Assembly (NCBI GenBank): GCA_009780415.1
Contig: WRAC01000011.1
Location: forward strand, 1-60,480
Length of the DNA stretch: 60,480 nt
Source: Defluviitaleaceae bacterium
Lineage (GTDB): Bacteria; Bacillota; Clostridia; Lachnospirales; WRAX01
Direction: 5' to 3'
Positions 45,293 to 54,142 of the stretch are shown piece by piece (position 1 is the first letter of the stretch; each line of letters starts with the position of its first letter). The position numbers and the translations under genes were made by a program. The notes beneath the pieces were generated by a model. That model did not search any database. It saw only the letters and a list, made by a program, of their open reading frames with translations, and was not told where the DNA came from.

Positions 45293-46852
45293 ATGCTTCT
45301 TAAAGAAGCCATAGCCCTTACGCAATGCATTGGCAGCGAGCAGACACAGCTTTTGATCGAGGGTGACATAATCGTCCCCGACTCCAAGCCGGATATGCGG
45401 ATGCTCCTCAGGACAGATGCCGCGGCGCGTATTGAGCGCGGCGAGATTTCTGCCGACCGCGTAAGTTTTTCCGGTAAACTGGTGATAAAGGCCCTATACC
45501 TTGCGAAGGGGTCAGAAAAGCCCGTACATAGCCTGAACCTCAGCGCGCCCATCGAGGATTTTATCCAAATCGAAGGCGCAAACCGCGATATGTGGGCCGA
45601 TACCGCCGCGGAGATCGCCCATATTGATTACAAAATGGTAAACGACAGGAAAGTAAACTACCGCGCCGTCGTAAACATCAGCGTGGGCGTGCACGCCAAG
45701 ACCAGCCACGACGTGGTGGTCAGCGTGGATGGCCTTGCCGAGTCCCACCTGAAAAAAAGCCGCCACAGCGTCTGCCGGGTTATCGCGACCTGTTCCGACG
45801 TCATCCAGCTCCGCAACGACCTGCCCTTGCCTCCCGGAAAACCCGGTATAGTCAACATCTTACAAAGCGACGCCCGTATCTCCAACAAAGAAGTAAAAGT
45901 CCAGAACGGGCGCGTCGCCATAAGCGGCGAACTGTTGATCCAAAGCCTCTACACGGGCGACGACGGGACCATCGCCGAATTCGCGGAGCACGAAACCCCG
46001 TTTTCCGGCTTTATCGAGGCCCCAGGAGCTAAAGAGGGAATGCAGGCCGACGTCACCCTTGCCATAGCAGACCTCAGCATCAACATCGGCAAGGACGAGG
46101 ACGGCGAGGACCGCGTGTTCGCCGCCGACGCCGTAATCAGCGCCAACCTTCGCGTTCAGAGTCTGGGTGAGGTCGTCCTCCTTGAGGACGCATACCACAT
46201 CAACAAAGACCTGCACTTCACCCGTGAAACCGTCAAATTCCCGCGCCAGATCTGCCGCAACAAGAACCAGTGCCCCATCAAGGAAATCATCCAGCTTGAC
46301 GACACATGCCCGGAAATCCTGCAAATCTACCAGGCATCCGGCAATCTTTTCGTCGAAAGCGTAAAGCTATTTGAGGACCGTATGACCGTTGAGGGCGTTA
46401 TCCACGCCGACATCCTCTATATTGCCCGCGATGACGACACACCGCTTTATAACCACCGCTCCGCCATCCCTTACAAGCAGACAATCGAGGTAAAAGGCGC
46501 GGCGCCCGGCATGGAGGCCTTCATCGACCATTCCATTGATCACATAGGTTTCAACATGCTTTCGGGTAAAGAAGTGGAAGTCCGCTACCTCGTCTGCTTC
46601 ACTGCCCGCGTCGTTGACAACCGCGCCGTTAACGTTATCAGCGACATCACTTTCACCGACATGGACAAATCCGTTCTCGACAAGATGGCCTCCATCACCG
46701 TCTACGTCGTACAGTCCGACGACAGCGCCTGGTCCATCGCCAAGAAATTTAACACAAGCCTCGACGACCTCCTCGAAATAAACGAGCTGGATTCACCCGA
46801 GGCCGTTGCTATGGGGCAGAAATTGCTGGTATTGAAGAAGATTGCGGTTTAG
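45293..46852 (+). CDS. SPOCS-domain (DUF3794) protein with C-terminal LysM
   Basis: A 519-residue protein with about three SPOCS/DUF3794 repeats (about residues 30-140, 185-290 and 335-440) and one LysM domain at 468-515 (YVVQSDDSAWSIAKKFNTSLDDLLEINEL). This architecture belongs to spore-coat-associated proteins of the SafA/SpoVID-interacting type. It implies a role in coat or cortex assembly, with LysM binding peptidoglycan. The ATG at 45293 follows an AGGAGG site. A CATACATA box at 45229-45236 resembles a sporulation sigma-E -10, but no convincing -35 was found. Confidence 0.88.
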   Translation: MLLKEAIALTQCIGSEQTQLLIEGDIIVPDSKPDMRMLLRTDAAARIERGEISADRVSFSGKLVIKALYLAKGSEKPVHSLNLSAPIEDFIQIEGANRDMWADTAAEIAHIDYKMVNDRKVNYRAVVNISVGVHAKTSHDVVVSVDGLAESHLKKSRHSVCRVIATCSDVIQLRNDLPLPPGKPGIVNILQSDARISNKEVKVQNGRVAISGELLIQSLYTGDDGTIAEFAEHETPFSGFIEAPGAKEGMQADVTLAIADLSINIGKDEDGEDRVFAADAVISANLRVQSLGEVVLLEDAYHINKDLHFTRETVKFPRQICRNKNQCPIKEIIQLDDTCPEILQIYQASGNLFVESVKLFEDRMTVEGVIHADILYIARDDDTPLYNHRSAIPYKQTIEVKGAAPGMEAFIDHSIDHIGFNMLSGKEVEVRYLVCFTARVVDNRAVNVISDITFTDMDKSVLDKMASITVYVVQSDDSAWSIAKKFNTSLDDLLEINELDSPEAVAMGQKLLVLKKIAV

Positions 46853-46886: not shown

Positions 46887-46917
46887 AATTGCTTTATACA
46901 AGAATTCCCATATCAGG

Positions 46918-46962
46918 AAAGCCGTGGTTTATGTTGACGATATCCTTCAAAACCACGGCTTT
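46918..46962. other. Long inverted repeat upstream of the giant lipoprotein gene
   Basis: AAAGCCGTGGTTT (46918-46930) pairs perfectly with AAACCACGGCTTT (46950-46962) over a 19-base loop. It ends 18 bases before the predicted -35 of the next gene. It may terminate the SPOCS transcript, although the T-tract is only the three Ts in the stem. Confidence 0.5.
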
Positions 46963-46980
46963 GCTGTCGCGTAATTTATC

Positions 46981-47009
46981 TTGACAATCTCGGCGTTATG
47001 GGGTATATT
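46981..47009 (+). promoter_or_regulatory. Near-consensus sigma-A promoter for the giant lipoprotein
   Basis: TTGACA (46981-46986), a 17-base spacer and TATATT (47004-47009). The -35 is perfect and the -10 has one mismatch. It lies 51 bases before the GTG start at 47061. Confidence 0.75.
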
Positions 47010-47060
47010 GTTAGGGAGTATTATTTTGTCTATAATAATATCTTGAAAGGAGTTTTAGAT

Positions 47061-50000
47061 GTGAAGAGAAGATTCTTTGTGGCGCTTCTCGCTACGGCGT
47101 TTATAATCGCCAAGACAGCTTTGGCCAGTTGTCGACCAGCGGAACCCACACCCGCACCCACCCCGACACCAGCACCCGTCGCCACACCTACGCCCCAGCC
47201 CACGCCGGAACCGACGGAAGCCCCTGCTGACGATCCTGTCGACGACCCCGTCGATGATCCCGCTGATGACCCCGTTGACGATCCCGTTGCAGCGGCAGGC
47301 GCAGAAGCCTTGGCTGGTACATATCACCTTGATTTCGCACCCGTAGGCGCGCCTTTGCGTGTCACGGTTGAAGTCAGAGCGGACGGTTTGTTCCGTGCCT
47401 CCACCGTTTACGGCGGTCTTAACGTCTGGGGCGACGGAGTCATTACCGGAGCGGACGGCGCTTTCATGCTGGAAGTCCCGGAATTTGGCATTGCTTTCCC
47501 CTTTGGCCTGTCAGCGGACGGCAGCCTCACTTATGATGAGGATATTTTCTGGGGTATAGTTGAAGCCCCCGACTTCGTCAGTCTTATCAACTCCCTGTTC
47601 CCCGGGCTGTTTAATCAGCCCGGCACACAGGAGCAGGCTCCCGCCGAAACAGTGACGGTGCCTCCCGCCGAACGTTTTGCCTTATCCGGCAACTGGACGA
47701 TCGACCTGCGACCCATTAACTGGGACGCGGTTATCCGCGCTGATATAGATGAAGCCGGCAACTTCTACGCCCTTGCCGGTACGCCTTTCGGTGAGTTCTT
47801 CGCCATAGGCGGCATCGTTGCGGAAGGCAATCTGATGCATATAAGCTTCCCCGATTTTAATATCCATGAAACAATAACGGTTATTGACGGCATTTATTAT
47901 GTGGATGAGGCGCAGTACAGCTTCTATGAGGCACTTATCCTGGATATGATTGCCAATTTCAATCAGCCCGTTTCCGCCGTGCCGGTAACCACGCAGCCTG
48001 TTGCGCAAGCTCAGGGGCCGGAACCGCTCACGGACCTTATAGCCGATCTGGCGGGGACATATAGTGTCAGCCTTCGCCCCCTTGGCTACAGCAACGAATT
48101 TTACGTCGCGGTAAGCTCAACAGGCGAGATGTACATCGAAACCACGATTGAGGGTTTCGGCCAGATGTACGTTAATGCCGATCTTTCCGAATCCAACGGC
48201 GTATATCAAATCCGCGCCCCAGGTTTTGACGCGTCACTGCGGTTCACCATCGAAAACGGCGAGTACATACCGAATGCGTCCGATATAACGGCGTTAGCGG
48301 AGCTGGCCGCGCAGTTTTTCCCGCAGCCGGCCGCGCCCGCAGCGGAGACAGCTGTGGCAGTGCCGGAGCCGGAGCCCGCAGCGGTTGACCTTGTCGCCGC
48401 GCTTGCCGGAGAATATAAAATAGATTTAACGCCCGTGGGATTTACAGCGGAGATTTATCTGTCCGCCACCGCAGCCGGTGATATTTACGCCGAAGCGGAA
48501 ATCGAGCCCCTGGGCGTTTTTTATATTACCGGCGTGTTGACCGAAGACGGCGAAGGGTTCAAGATTTCTGTGCCGGCGTTTAACGAGTCGCTTCGCTTCC
48601 TTGACCTTGACGGCGTATTTGTGCCTAACTGGGAAGATTTGAGAAGGCTTTCCGGTATGGCGGCGCTTCTGATTAATTCCATGATTCCCGCCGCTCAGCC
48701 CGAGCCGGAACCCGTTGCGGAACCGGAACCCGAGCCTGTTGACCCCATTGCCGAGCTGGCGGGGATTTACAGTTTCGATCTAAGGCCCGTCGGCTGGGAT
48801 GCCAGAATTGATGCCGTGCTTGGCGAAGACGGAGTGCTTTACGCGCAGTCGTTTATTGAGGGCGCGCTGTTCTACATTCAGGCTAATGTGACCGAGCATA
48901 TCGGTGTTTTCCAGATTGATCTGTCGGAGTTTGCCACGCGCCTGCGCTTTACTGCCGAAAATGGCGTGATTGTACCGTTTACCGAGGATCTATTGAGAAT
49001 TGAAGAATTAATAATTTTCGCCGCGGCTTCTATGTTTGCCGAAATACCCGCCGAACCCGAGGCTGTGGCGGCAGCAGAGCCTGAGCCCGAGCCGGAACCA
49101 GCGGATCCCATTGCCGAATTGGCGGGGATGTACAGTTTCGATCTAAGGCCCGTCGGCTGGGATGCCAGAATTGATGCCGTGCTTGGCGAAGACGGCGTGC
49201 TTTACGCACAGTCGTTTATTGAGGGCGTACTGTTCTACATTCAGGCTAATGTGACCGAGCATATCGGCGTTTTCCAGATTGATCTGTCGGAGTTTGCCAC
49301 GCGCCTGCGCTTTACTGTCGAAAATGGCGTGATTGTGCCGTTTACCGAGGATTTATTAAGAATTGAGACATTGATAGTTGCCGTCGCCGCGGAAATGTTT
49401 GCGGCGCAGTCGCAGGCTCCCGTTGATGCTCCCGCTGTAGTACAAGCCTCCGCCGATCCCGTAGCCGCCCTTGCCGGCGAATATTTCTTTGACCTCTCGC
49501 CCATGGGGTACGCGGTGACGATTAAAGCCATCGCCGGACAGCTTGGCAGCGTTTATGCCGAAGCGGCCCTTGAGCCTTTAGGGACTTTTTACGTTTACGG
49601 CGTAATAACCGACGCGCCGGGCGGTTTCCATCTTACCGCGCCGGATTTCGGCGTTTACATTCCTTTTAACGCAGTAAACGGCGAGTTTGCTATTGCCCCT
49701 GAGATTTGGGTGCTGCTTCAGGAAGCCGCCGATATGCTTTACAATGAGTTCTTCGCGGTTTCGCGCGGTTTTGCGTCTAATGAGCGAGCTTTGAGCGCCG
49801 CCCCGCTTGCCGGGGAATACCATTTTGATCTGTCTCCGCTGGGTTATGCGCTGACTGTTAAAGCCATCGTTGAGCAAAACGGCGGCGTTTATGCAGAAGC
49901 CGATCTCGCTCCCTTCGGGACTTTCTATGTACTGGGTAATGTACAGGCTCAGGGTACTGACTACCGCCTTACAGCGCCGGATTTCGGCGTTTATATTCCT

Positions 50001-53000
50001 TTTAGCATCGTAAACGGCGAATTTGGCGTTGCCCCGGATATCTGGGCCTTGCTTCAGGAAGCCGCCGATTTTGTTTACTACGAGCTTTTTGTGCCGTTTA
50101 CCGCTCCTGCGGTATCCTCAGCCGATCCCGTAGCCGCCCTTGCAGGCGAATATTTCTTTGACCTTTCGCCCATGGGGTACGCGGTGACGATTAAAGCCAT
50201 TGCCGGGCAGCTTGGCAGCGTTTATGCCGAAGCGGCCCTTGAGCCTTTAGGGACTTTCTACGTTTACGGCGTAATAACCGAAGCGCCGGGCGGGTTCCAT
50301 CTTACCGCGCCGGATTTCGGCGTTTACATTCCTTTTAACATAGTAAACGGCGAGTTTGCCATTGCCCCTGAGATTTGGGCGCTGCTTCAGGAAGCTGCCG
50401 ATATGCTTTACAATGAGTTCTTCGCGGTTTCGCGGGGTTTTGCGTCCGCCCGCCGCGCTTTGAACGCCGCCCCGCTTGCCGGGGAATATTATTTCGACCT
50501 GTCTCCGCTGGGGTATGTACTGACGGTTAAGGTTGTAGTTGACCACAACGGCGATGTTTATGCCGAAGCAACCGTTGACCCCTTCGGAACCTACTATGTT
50601 CTGGGTAACGTAACAGGAGCTCCGGGCGGGTTTTACCTTACCGCGCCGGATTTCGGCTTTTACATACCCGTTAGCGTAACAAACGGCGAGATGGGCGTTG
50701 CCCCGGATATCTGGGCGCTGCTTAAAGAAGGCGCGGACATGGTATATAATATGCTATACCCGCCAATGGCGACAGCGGTTACGGATATTGCGGCGGTCTA
50801 TGTGCCCGCCGATCCCGTCGCCGCCCTTGCCGGCGAATACTATTTTGACCTTTCGCCGCTGGGTTATGTTGTGACGGTTAAAGCCATTGTTGACCAAAGC
50901 GGAGGCGTTTACGCCGAAGCTAACCTCCCTCCCTTCGGATCTTATTATGTTTTAGGCGAAATAACCGCGATACAGGGCGCTTACCATCTTACCGCGTCGG
51001 ATTTCGGCGTTTATATCCCCTTTAGCGTAGCAAACGGCGAATTTGGCGTTGCCCCGGAAATTTGGACGCTGCTTAAAGAAGGCGCGGACATGGTATACTA
51101 TACTCTTTTCCTGACGCTTATCGACGAGCTGTCAGCCGCCGGACTCACTGCGGACATTGCGGGAACTTACTATTTCGACCTGTCCCCCGTAGGCTATGAC
51201 GTTGTCGTAAAGGCTGATATAAACGAATGGGGCAAAGCGTATCTTGTATCCACCATCGAACCCTTCGGGACATATTACGTTCACGCCAATGTGGAGCCGA
51301 CCCTTCTGGGATACCGCGCGACAGAAGATAATTTGGGAATATCTCTGCGTTTCATAGTCTTGGACGATATATTTATTCCCGATATTGACGACATAACATA
51401 CATTGAAAACTTAATACTGGACCTGCTGGCCGCCCCCTTTACGGGCGGCTCAGCAGTTTGTTATGAATTGGGAGCGGATTCCGCGAGCGTATCAATCGCG
51501 CAATTACCCGACATATTCGGCCTTCCTATTGAAACCATAAAGAATGCCGCTGAAATGATCCCGTATTTCTTAGATTTCCTGAACCCCGTCATGATCGACT
51601 TCCTGTTGCAAACGGCTGCTTTCAATGAATCATGTGATTTGTTTGATTACGGAATCCCGCTGTCGTTTGACGCGTCTTTTGACGGCAGGGACCTCTCCCT
51701 CGGCTTGAATTTACATGGCATAAACGAGATGGTCAAAGCCATTGCCGCCGATCCTCTCTTCATGCTCATTGTTTACGAGGTTTTGGAAATCCTTGATAAT
51801 ATTGATGTTTTAATAGCCGAAGCCGCAGCTCAGATGGATATGCTTATGGAAATAGCGGAGCTTGCCGAAACGGATCCCGTTGCTTTCATCTTGGCTCTGG
51901 ACAATCTCCTCCCCGGCCTTCTGCCTTATGAGTTCATCGAAGGCTATATGCTGGGAGTTGAGATAACCGAATTCATTGAATACCTGATCTGGCCTTACGA
52001 CTTTGAAGATATCTTCTGGCTTTTCGAGTTCCCGGATTATCTGTGGCTTGCGGAGGAAATCTATTATGAGTTCTTCTTTGATTGGGACAGCTACATGTAT
52101 GATTTTGATTCCGGCATTGAGGTTGATTGGGGCGATTGGGACTGGGACTGGGATTTCTATTCCGAGCCTTACGAATATACCGCTTTTGTTGACTTAAACG
52201 AGTATGGCATCGACGCCGAAGCAATGCTTATCTTTTACGAGGAGTATTTCAATGTAGAAACCTTTTATGCCGAAGTGGTTTTGCCCGACGGCAGCGGGTT
52301 TTTCCTTGACGGCCTTGTTGAGATAATCGGCGGCGAATTGGCGATGGTATACCCGCAAACCGGCATGTACCTGACATTCTACGCCGAAGTTGATATTTAC
52401 GATGATTTGTATGTCTTTTTCGACGGTTCCGAGCTTGTCCGTGTCTGGAATACCGCATTTGAAGCCCTTGCCGGCCCCGCTCCCGCAGCCCCGGCTATTC
52501 CCGCGTTAAATATAAATATCGCCGGAACGTATTTTGTTGACATGGCGCCGGTTGGGCTGGGTCTTAATATTTTCTTCATTGTGGAAGAGGACGGCACGTT
52601 CTACATAACCGATTTCCCAAGCATTGACCAGATGGCTTATTACTACGCGGAGGGCGTTATCCTCTTTTCCGAGGGTCCCTTCATGAGTATCCCGGAATGG
52701 GATTTGCATTTCCCCGTCACCTTTTATGACGGCGATATTGCGATGCATGCCGGTCACTTTACGCAGATTATGGGCTTTGAGCCCGCCGGAAACATTGGTC
52801 ATCTCGAGAGGGTCAAGTACGACATGCGTAACGTGCAGTTCTATAACCCCGCTCCCCGCTATATCCCTTCCAGCCGCGACGGTGTCTATCAAATCGACCT
52901 TTCCCCCGCGGGGATACCCGATTACATCTACCTCGTCCTTGAAGGGGAATACGCCGCAATCGTAACCGGCGCCGTTGAACTTATTGCCGATGCTTATGTC

Positions 53001-53159
53001 TTTGCCGACCAGGGATTGCTTTTCCTTTATATCCCGGATGCCGGTATTGTTGCCCCCTTCGTAGCCTGGCAGAATACCGTTTCCTTCGACCCCGCCGATT
53101 TTTATGGCTTAGGTTTGATTTACATGGCGGATGAGATAATCGGATACAAGGTTTATTAA
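47061..53159 (+). CDS. Giant modular secreted lipoprotein (about 2030 residues), family unknown
   Basis: The GTG at 47061 has AAAGGAG eight bases upstream and lies after the promoter; upstream in-frame codons overlap the -10 and are rejected. The start MKRRFFVALLATAFIIA and lipobox LASC (Cys24) mark a lipoprotein. Residues 25-75 are Pro/Thr-rich, then Asp-Pro repeats (DDPV five times). About 15 modules of roughly 95 residues follow, each like LAGEYxFDLSPxGY...VYAEAxxxPFGTxYVxGxVT...APDFGVYIPF...NGEFGVAPEIW; starts near 47310, 47680, 48048, 48403, 48756, 49119, 49470, 49805, 50139, 50475, 50825, 51155, 52165, 52518 and 52874. A unique acidic, aromatic segment lies at 51440-52160. Lys and Arg are rare. 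I recognise no named family; a surface or binding role is inference. Confidence 0.85.
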   Translation: MKRRFFVALLATAFIIAKTALASCRPAEPTPAPTPTPAPVATPTPQPTPEPTEAPADDPVDDPVDDPADDPVDDPVAAAGAEALAGTYHLDFAPVGAPLRVTVEVRADGLFRASTVYGGLNVWGDGVITGADGAFMLEVPEFGIAFPFGLSADGSLTYDEDIFWGIVEAPDFVSLINSLFPGLFNQPGTQEQAPAETVTVPPAERFALSGNWTIDLRPINWDAVIRADIDEAGNFYALAGTPFGEFFAIGGIVAEGNLMHISFPDFNIHETITVIDGIYYVDEAQYSFYEALILDMIANFNQPVSAVPVTTQPVAQAQGPEPLTDLIADLAGTYSVSLRPLGYSNEFYVAVSSTGEMYIETTIEGFGQMYVNADLSESNGVYQIRAPGFDASLRFTIENGEYIPNASDITALAELAAQFFPQPAAPAAETAVAVPEPEPAAVDLVAALAGEYKIDLTPVGFTAEIYLSATAAGDIYAEAEIEPLGVFYITGVLTEDGEGFKISVPAFNESLRFLDLDGVFVPNWEDLRRLSGMAALLINSMIPAAQPEPEPVAEPEPEPVDPIAELAGIYSFDLRPVGWDARIDAVLGEDGVLYAQSFIEGALFYIQANVTEHIGVFQIDLSEFATRLRFTAENGVIVPFTEDLLRIEELIIFAAASMFAEIPAEPEAVAAAEPEPEPEPADPIAELAGMYSFDLRPVGWDARIDAVLGEDGVLYAQSFIEGVLFYIQANVTEHIGVFQIDLSEFATRLRFTVENGVIVPFTEDLLRIETLIVAVAAEMFAAQSQAPVDAPAVVQASADPVAALAGEYFFDLSPMGYAVTIKAIAGQLGSVYAEAALEPLGTFYVYGVITDAPGGFHLTAPDFGVYIPFNAVNGEFAIAPEIWVLLQEAADMLYNEFFAVSRGFASNERALSAAPLAGEYHFDLSPLGYALTVKAIVEQNGGVYAEADLAPFGTFYVLGNVQAQGTDYRLTAPDFGVYIPFSIVNGEFGVAPDIWALLQEAADFVYYELFVPFTAPAVSSADPVAALAGEYFFDLSPMGYAVTIKAIAGQLGSVYAEAALEPLGTFYVYGVITEAPGGFHLTAPDFGVYIPFNIVNGEFAIAPEIWALLQEAADMLYNEFFAVSRGFASARRALNAAPLAGEYYFDLSPLGYVLTVKVVVDHNGDVYAEATVDPFGTYYVLGNVTGAPGGFYLTAPDFGFYIPVSVTNGEMGVAPDIWALLKEGADMVYNMLYPPMATAVTDIAAVYVPADPVAALAGEYYFDLSPLGYVVTVKAIVDQSGGVYAEANLPPFGSYYVLGEITAIQGAYHLTASDFGVYIPFSVANGEFGVAPEIWTLLKEGADMVYYTLFLTLIDELSAAGLTADIAGTYYFDLSPVGYDVVVKADINEWGKAYLVSTIEPFGTYYVHANVEPTLLGYRATEDNLGISLRFIVLDDIFIPDIDDITYIENLILDLLAAPFTGGSAVCYELGADSASVSIAQLPDIFGLPIETIKNAAEMIPYFLDFLNPVMIDFLLQTAAFNESCDLFDYGIPLSFDASFDGRDLSLGLNLHGINEMVKAIAADPLFMLIVYEVLEILDNIDVLIAEAAAQMDMLMEIAELAETDPVAFILALDNLLPGLLPYEFIEGYMLGVEITEFIEYLIWPYDFEDIFWLFEFPDYLWLAEEIYYEFFFDWDSYMYDFDSGIEVDWGDWDWDWDFYSEPYEYTAFVDLNEYGIDAEAMLIFYEEYFNVETFYAEVVLPDGSGFFLDGLVEIIGGELAMVYPQTGMYLTFYAEVDIYDDLYVFFDGSELVRVWNTAFEALAGPAPAAPAIPALNINIAGTYFVDMAPVGLGLNIFFIVEEDGTFYITDFPSIDQMAYYYAEGVILFSEGPFMSIPEWDLHFPVTFYDGDIAMHAGHFTQIMGFEPAGNIGHLERVKYDMRNVQFYNPAPRYIPSSRDGVYQIDLSPAGIPDYIYLVLEGEYAAIVTGAVELIADAYVFADQGLLFLYIPDAGIVAPFVAWQNTVSFDPADFYGLGLIYMADEIIGYKVY
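48756..49440 (+). repeat. Tandem duplication of modules 5 and 6 in the giant lipoprotein
   Basis: The units starting at 48756 and 49119 (363 bases apart) are nearly identical at DNA level for about 250 bases; for example AGTTTCGATCTAAGGCCCG occurs in both. Their linkers differ. Confidence 0.8.
49470..50815 (+). repeat. Two-module duplication (7-8 and 9-10) in the giant lipoprotein
   Basis: Modules 7 (49470) and 9 (50139) are 669 bases apart and nearly identical. The joint after each (NEFFAVSRGFAS, then AAPLAGEY) is also shared, so a unit of two modules was duplicated. Modules 8 and 10 have diverged more. Confidence 0.75.
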
Positions 53160-53172
53160 GAAATTCATTAAT

Positions 53173-53220
53173 AAAAACGGTCAGGACCGGATTTTCTTAA
53201 TTCCTGTCCTGACCGTTTTT
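53173..53220. terminator. Strong bidirectional terminator between the lipoprotein gene and spo0A
   Basis: AAAAACGGTCAGGAC (53173-53187) pairs perfectly with GTCCTGACCGTTTTT (53206-53220). The A-run and T-run at the ends suit termination of both convergent transcripts. Confidence 0.88.
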
Positions 53221-53260
53221 GGAGTTAAATATATAAAGACCGGATTTTCTCAGTCTAATA

Positions 53261-54055
53261 TTAATTCGCTTTCAATTCCAAGCGTGTGCGGTCCGCGATA
53301 AGGGCGATAAATTCGCTGTTTGTAGGCTTGCCCTTTTGCGTGTTTACGGTATAACCGAAAATGGCGTCGATAACCTCTATGCGCCCGCGTCCCCAGGCGA
53401 CCTCGATAGCGTGGCGGATGGCGCGTTCGACACGGCTGGGCGTGGTACCCGATTTTTTCGCGATAGTTGGGTAAAGTTCCTTTGTAATATAATTTAGGAC
53501 ATCCAGGTTATTGACCGCTATAATAATTGCGTCGCGTACGTAATGATAGCCGCGGATATGCGCCGGAACGCCGATATCATGCAGAATTGACGTGACGCGC
53601 GTCTCTATGTCGTGCTGGATTTCCGCTTCGCTCTTTGCCGGCTGTTTAGGGACACTGCTCGCGGAAACGGGCTTCCGGCATAATTGGCGGATGCGTGCCA
53701 GCAAGGATTCGATGTCGAAAGGTTTCACCATATAATAGTCGGCTCCCAATTCGATGGCGCGGCTTGTGATATGCTCATGACTTACGCCCGAAAGCATTAT
53801 ACACACAGGCTTTTGACCGGATTCCCAAGCCCGGCGCGCCGCGATCCTTTCCAAAACCCCAAGACCGTCCAATTTCGGCATTATTCCATCCAGAATGACA
53901 ACATCGGGCTGCATGTTTATTATTTTGTCACAGGCCTCCACCCCGTCATGCGATATGTTCACAACATCAATGTCCTCATGCTTTCCCAGATATCCGCTTA
54001 CCACATCGCAAAAATCCGTGTTGTCATCAGCAATTAATACCTTAATTTTCTCCAT
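53261..54055 (-). CDS. spo0A: Sporulation master regulator Spo0A
   Basis: A 264-residue response regulator. The receiver domain has D10-D11, the phospho-acceptor D56 ([13 protein letters not shown]) and MVKPFD. The C-terminal Spo0A DNA-binding domain contains [19 protein letters not shown], the recognition-helix region [18 protein letters not shown] and the closing [23 protein letters not shown]. Phosphorylated Spo0A starts sporulation. The ATG at 54055 has AGGAGGG nine bases before it. It shows that the organism descends from spore formers. The neighbours spoIVB and spo0A-type recN are not in view. Confidence 0.97.
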
Positions 54056-54113
54056 AATTCCGTACCCTCCTGATTCATATTGTATTTTTATGTAAATATT
54101 TCCAGTAATTTCC

Positions 54114-54142
54114 ATTATAAACTATAAGTTTTATAAAAGCAA
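54114..54142 (-). promoter_or_regulatory. Predicted promoter of spo0A
   Basis: On the minus strand TTGCTT (54142-54137), a 17-base spacer and TATAAT (54119-54114). The -10 is perfect, the -35 weak, which would fit an activated promoter. A box TTTGTCGGA at 54170-54162 resembles a 0A box with one mismatch to TGTCGAA. Confidence 0.45.

Follow-up and report, generated by a model that had tools for sequence, protein, structure and literature searches.

A giant repetitive lipoprotein with a predicted calycin-like module in a Defluviitaleaceae bacterium

The giant lipoprotein gene and its module array

The 60,480-nucleotide stretch of Defluviitaleaceae bacterium DNA analysed here (contig WRAC01000011.1 of assembly GCA_009780415.1; "the window" below) contains at 47061–53159 (+) an open reading frame that encodes a giant lipoprotein, single-copy in its genome, in which a module is repeated about 15 times behind a predicted lipid anchor and a stalk. 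The frame starts with GTG behind the ribosome-binding site AAAGGAG, and this start region (AAAGGAGTTTTAnnTGTGAARAGAAG, a pattern with a single occurrence in the window) is conserved exactly in the protein's relative in another genus (L024 in genome G006, discussed below). We therefore prefer the GTG start and reject the longer alternative from ATG 46998 as less likely. An earlier note, made from the DNA alone, had given the same coordinates, the conserved-core motifs and about 15 repeats, and was right on all three counts; these gene boundaries, the repeat and the lipobox are firm.

Behind the stalk come 12 modules in a row; an insert of 244 residues separates them from a degenerate module, and two more modules form the C-terminus (table 1). 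A single hidden Markov model (HMM) places the starts of modules 1–7 at residues 85, 209, 331, 449, 567, 688 and 805, and those of modules 8–12, 14 and 15 at residues 917, 1028, 1140, 1257, 1367, 1821 and 1940; these 14 clear modules have independent E-values from 1e-23 to 3e-40 (69–123 bits), although they are the same sequences from which the HMM was built. The best score among 200 shuffles of the protein was 9.5 bits. In a leave-one-out test, in which near-identical partners were also dropped and the database size was set to 100,000, 13 of the 15 modules were found at E-values of 1e-9 to 7e-33 and module 15 at 6e-4, whereas module 13 (at about residue 1705; 3 bits in the HMM scan) was not significant by itself (E 3.4). 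Since the corresponding segment of the relative reaches 16.4 bits, module 13 is probably a module that has decayed. The repeat period is 110–124 amino acids, of which about 80 form a conserved core that is followed by a helix. Outside recent clades the modules share about 20–40% identity; the SPxGY, PFG and APDFG loops are strongly conserved across modules 7–11.

Table 1. Features of the giant lipoprotein locus (positions in the window)
Feature	Position	Strand	Basis and remarks
Promoter, sigma-A-like, TTGACA-17-TATATT	46981..47009	+	Predicted; consensus scan, 11/12 matches
Ribosome-binding site AAAGGAG	47046..47052	+	Sequence; same bases and start region conserved in relative
Giant lipoprotein gene, 2032 amino acids	47061..53159	+	Open reading frame
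Signal peptide and lipobox LAS-Cys24	47061..47132	+	Read directly in sequence; Lgt and LspA in genome
Stalk, Pro/Thr-rich then DDPV repeats, residues 25–84	47133..47312	+	Sequence
Module 1	47313..47600	+	HMM; leave-one-out E 1e-9
Module 2	47685..47963	+	HMM; leave-one-out E 8e-11
Module 3	48051..48329	+	HMM; leave-one-out
Module 4	48405..48686	+	HMM; leave-one-out
Module 5 (91% DNA identity to module 6)	48759..49040	+	HMM; leave-one-out
Module 6	49122..49403	+	HMM; leave-one-out
Module 7 (96% DNA identity to module 9)	49473..49757	+	HMM; predicted fold, seven strands and helix
Module 8	49809..50090	+	HMM; leave-one-out
Module 9	50142..50426	+	HMM; leave-one-out
Module 10	50478..50759	+	HMM; leave-one-out
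Module 11	50829..51110	+	HMM; leave-one-out
Module 12	51159..51440	+	HMM; leave-one-out
Unique insert, residues 1461–1704, ending in D/W/Y-rich stretch	51441..52172	+	Counterpart in relative
Degenerate module 13	52173..52460	+	HMM, 3 bits; leave-one-out E 3.4
Module 14, conserved between genera	52521..52802	+	HMM; leave-one-out; fold prediction
Module 15, C-terminal barrel, final strand ending GYKVY	52878..53156	+	HMM; leave-one-out E 6e-4; fold prediction
Intrinsic terminator hairpin, 16-bp stem then T's	53172..53221	+	-29.5 kcal/mol

Anchor, composition and genomic setting

The signal peptide, KRRFFVALLATAFIIAKTALAS-C24, ends in the lipobox LASC, and the relative's N-terminal fragment carries the lipobox SVTGC, so that a lipobox is present in both genera. 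The genome encodes both processing enzymes, Lgt (PF01790, E 2e-51) and signal peptidase II (LspA; PF01252, E 3e-41), each above the family cut-off, which supports a bacterial lipoprotein of the Lgt/LspA pathway with the lipid predicted on Cys24. Omp85 was not found in this genome by a search that was positive in seven control genomes; with Lgt and LspA present, the host cell most likely has a single membrane (monoderm), on whose outer face the lipoprotein would lie. The stalk is rich in Pro and Thr at residues 25–54 and has DDPV repeats at about residues 56–76. This type of Pro/Thr stalk is not peculiar to the giant protein, since a polysaccharide-deacetylase-like lipoprotein of the same genome (L002, 1378–2379 on contig C17 of G000) carries a similar one. 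In composition the giant lipoprotein is extreme (Asp+Glu 14.7%, Lys+Arg 2.8%, Phe+Trp+Tyr 14.2%; net charge -242): among the 24 open reading frames of the window that were compared, no other is as negative in net charge, as poor in Lys+Arg or as rich in aromatic residues.

The promoter-like site has a perfect -35 hexamer, and the relative's gene is likewise preceded by TTGACA-17-TATAGT (by eye); the terminator hairpin sits between the giant lipoprotein gene and a convergent gene downstream. Together these two sites support the gene as an independent unit. The earlier note had drawn this conclusion too, and its descriptions of the lipobox and the Pro/Thr and Asp-Pro stalk, of the acidic, aromatic and Lys/Arg-poor composition and of a surface-anchored lipoprotein also agree with the data given above. 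A perfect 13-bp inverted repeat at 46917–46965, upstream of the promoter, has a predicted folding energy of -24 kcal/mol and no clear T-run.

The gene upstream of this inverted repeat (45293–46852, +) encodes a SPOCS/LysM protein and the convergent downstream gene (53261–54115, -) a Spo0A-like regulator; because these two flank the giant lipoprotein gene, the organism is probably a spore-former. It is probably also motile, as indicated by a large flagellar operon at 199–24846 (-) that includes genes for an FlhF-like SRP54 GTPase, FlhA, FlhB, FliM, FliN/CheC-type FliY, FlgE, FliK, FliI and FliF. Gene order around the relative's locus differs, so the neighbours give no functional hint.

Distribution, module evolution and predicted fold

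Among 16 genomes of the bacterial family the gene occurs in two, of which this is one. No further clear carrier was seen among 392 genomes of the order or in samples of 391 genomes from the class and 398 from the phylum. The relative belongs to another genus of the same family (G006; also the metagenome-assembled genome Clostridiales bacterium Mx356_bin48). A scan of contigs with the alignment of the two proteins returned this same relative only; because it works from two peptide patterns, it does not strictly establish absence elsewhere. There was no relative among viral contigs, phages and plasmids. Weak profile matches in G539 and G183 are unrelated proteins without the repeat, and the weak matches of G958 and G1090 (E about 0.008) are taken as chance. 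Whole-protein matches in other genomes cover mostly the signal peptide and Pro/Thr stalk only, and the match in G005 is a different repeat protein. That genome, from the same family, has a very large repetitive open frame of 2595 residues with unrelated beta-type repeats (L010, contig C15).

The C-terminal 968 residues of the relative lie on one contig (C123) and a fragment with the lipobox and first module on another (C225). The start region, the insert and the C-terminal modules are common to both genera, and the best-aligned C-terminal part is 42% identical. An acidic Trp/Tyr/Asp-rich stretch of the insert, DWDSYMYDFDSGIEVDWGDWDWDWDFYSEPYEY, is absent from the relative. The module tree joins module 15 to the last module of the relative (support 100/99) and shows modules 7–11 (100/99) and 5–6 (100/100) as expansions of this lineage alone. 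Pairwise ratios of nonsynonymous to synonymous substitution rates (dN/dS) of 0.17–0.54 indicate purifying selection on the modules, and the synonymous distances (dS 0.14–0.17 for modules 7/9 and 0.27–0.34 for modules 5/6) mark these pairs as real copies and not assembly duplicates. Thus one gene presents a clear case of repeat evolution, with recent copies (7/9 and 5/6), older copies and conserved ends. A constant anchor and tip with a variable middle is the pattern expected of a spacer that carries a tip.

Neither NCBIfam nor the PDB sequences gave a match for the giant lipoprotein (the module profile reached only E 0.15 against the latter), and the insert and C-terminus have no family match in profile searches. 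The lipocalin, avidin and lipocalin-like Pfam families were absent at E-values up to 1 from searches with the protein, the 14 aligned modules and the relative. The sole named-family match is to Pfam PF02246 (Protein L B1), where the whole protein scores 28.5 bits against a cut-off of 25; this match covers only positions 32–65 of the 69 in the profile, and no stretch passes by itself. Among five junctions tested singly one matched (13.4 bits, E 0.084, profile positions 30–66 of 69), and the relative gave E 0.27. We reject membership of the Protein L family on these single-copy scores; the whole-protein pass sums weak half-domain similarities. We found no description of such a module array in the literature.

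AlphaFold2 models of two divergent parts of the array have in common a small antiparallel beta-barrel. The model of module 7, for which the 14 window modules served as alignment input, consists of seven strands, with short turns where SPxG and PDF lie, and ends in a helix (predicted local distance difference test score, pLDDT, 78.5). That of modules 14–15, with other module pairs and the relative as input (pLDDT 73.7), has the strand order of module 7 twice, plus an eighth strand at the C-terminus, so that module 15 is modelled with eight. In VIA-align comparisons, module 7 matched NlpE (Z 7.3), SP_0198, YedD, Bacteroides lipocalin-like proteins, TP0435 (Z 6.4), lipocalins and streptavidin with Z values of 5–7.4, and module 15 matched YedD (Z 9.3, 2.9 A over 92 residues), SP_0198 (Z 8.3, 84 residues) and, at Z about 5, fatty-acid-binding proteins; its identity to YedD and SP_0198 is 19–20%. 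Calycins, whose members often have no detectable sequence similarity to each other, are marked by a first-strand Trp (GxW) stacked on a last-strand Arg or Lys, with a 3-10 helix cap (PMC2954199). Here, strand A begins with G-x-[YW] in 14 of the 15 modules (usually with Tyr; Trp only in module 2), and in both genera the last strand of module 15 contains GYK; this is the only module in which the last-strand Lys is seen.

Two separate models agree and most of the high-scoring structural matches belong to one class, and for these reasons we favour that class: it is quite likely that the module fold is calycin-like, which falls short of proven calycin membership. The module is new as a sequence family and probably not new as a fold. 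The earlier note had called it unrecognised, which holds for the sequence, where only the diffuse Protein L B1 similarity appears, and does not hold for the fold, predicted to be a calycin-like barrel. The family search and structure prediction that it had suggested thus gave no clear family hit, in line with a new module, and a fold (modelled on module 7 and modules 14–15) of calycin-like type.

A possible rod at the cell surface and its known counterparts

In the model that these data suggest, a lipid on Cys24 would anchor the protein in the outward-facing side of the cytoplasmic membrane. From there the flexible Pro/Thr and DDPV stalk would lead to about 15 small calycin-like barrels in a row, with a helix and a short linker, often rich in Pro and Glu, after each. 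This row of barrels may form a rod, long and strongly negative, that crosses the cell wall and displays the conserved C-terminal part (insert and modules 13–15) at the cell surface, while module number would change by duplication of internal modules with anchor and tip kept. With each barrel taken as about 3 nm (our own estimate), fifteen of them and their linkers would reach beyond a wall of usual thickness. We infer surface display, a rod function and a binding role for the tip; whether the protein serves in binding or as a stalk is judged here from its evolutionary pattern, which fits a stalk with a conserved tip. We give even chances to a membrane-anchored rod that carries such a tip through the wall.

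Several observations weigh against this model and the fold on which it draws. The structure models are moderate (predicted template modelling scores of 0.58 for module 7 and 0.46 for modules 14–15), and with both of them Foldseek gave no match at E < 0.001; its results for the two-module model were dominated by implausible long alignments and were not used. Most Z values lie below 8, in a range where chance arrangements are common. The module 7 model has seven strands against the eight of a full calyx, and the calycin Arg/Lys partner is not seen in internal modules. With the gene present in two genera only, few sequences stand behind its conservation, and it is an assumption that the N-terminal fragment of the relative belongs with its C-terminal part on the other contig. 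The evidence behind the rod model consists of sequence and prediction.

The main rival is a multivalent binder, in which each barrel would hold or dock a ligand, be it a carbohydrate, a protein or a small hydrophobic molecule, and avidity would come from the array; the repeats would then be the functional part itself and more than a spacer. Calycins as a class are largely ligand binders (PMC2954199), the three conserved loops of modules 7–11 could be read in this way, and aromatic residues are abundant; against it, the modules are so dissimilar outside the recent clades, and U-Omp19, of the same fold group, is a small, tightly packed barrel without a cavity (PMC9486555). We regard it as possible but doubtful. 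The same tentative standing belongs to the idea that a small Clostridia clade has built from a calycin-like barrel, as a new domain family, a membrane-anchored rod of about 15 ligand-binding calyces, which would parallel Ig-like or cadherin-like stalks in lipocalin-like form.

A cell-surface enzyme or enzyme scaffold with its activity in the unique insert or C-terminal part would agree with the retention of the insert and end modules between genera; these regions have no family match, however, and no dockerin, cohesin, SLH, LysM or catalytic domain was found in the protein with Pfam and NCBIfam, so we think it improbable. More improbable still is an array of protease inhibitors that would protect the cell from proteolysis, in the manner of potempins or of the I38-type (Inh) barrels: U-Omp19 and potempin E are among the structural matches of module 15, but at Z 5.7–6.6, within the range of common arrangements, and U-Omp19 inhibits through its disordered N-terminal region and not its barrel (PMC9486555), with no equivalent of that region identified in the giant lipoprotein. 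An immunoglobulin-binding surface protein of the Protein L kind, to which the whole-protein score points, is extremely unlikely given the half-profile coverage, the failure of single junctions and of the relative, and the seven or eight strands predicted for the module.

Bacterial surface-protein stalks are usually built of a few well-known folds, and calycin-like barrels normally occur singly or in pairs and often bind ligands. If the prediction is right, the membrane-anchored rod would be a stalk of calycin-like barrels, an unusual choice of fold, and the module would merit a new family entry. The protein is of a known kind, the lineage-specific giant surface proteins, of which there are many, and its domain family is new. 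Its nearest structural counterparts, YedD (4hwm, 9fz5), pneumococcal SP_0198 (5cyb, 3ge2), NlpE (2z4h) and Treponema TP0435 (4u3q), are also lipoproteins with a small antiparallel barrel; their chains have 89–190 residues in the PDB, whereas the giant lipoprotein chains about 15 barrels, and none has a sequence-profile match to the module. With lipocalins, fatty-acid-binding proteins and avidins it would share the up-and-down barrel (predicted here), the G-x-[YW] of strand A and a helix after the barrel, but the module is shorter and its internal copies are without a clear eighth strand or conserved last-strand Arg/Lys. The Protein L B1 domain (PF02246), about 69 profile positions in hairpin-helix-hairpin order, is likewise repeated in a surface protein, that of Finegoldia, and is similar over half its profile to the module starts; the module differs in its strand number, and single copies fail the profile. 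The giant repetitive surface proteins of Gram-positive bacteria are the closest parallel in overall design: although the present protein has a predicted lipid anchor at its N-terminus, no sortase-like tail at its C-terminus (by eye) and modules of an unnamed family, it has in common with them an anchor, a long flexible stalk, tandem modules and a lineage-specific copy number.

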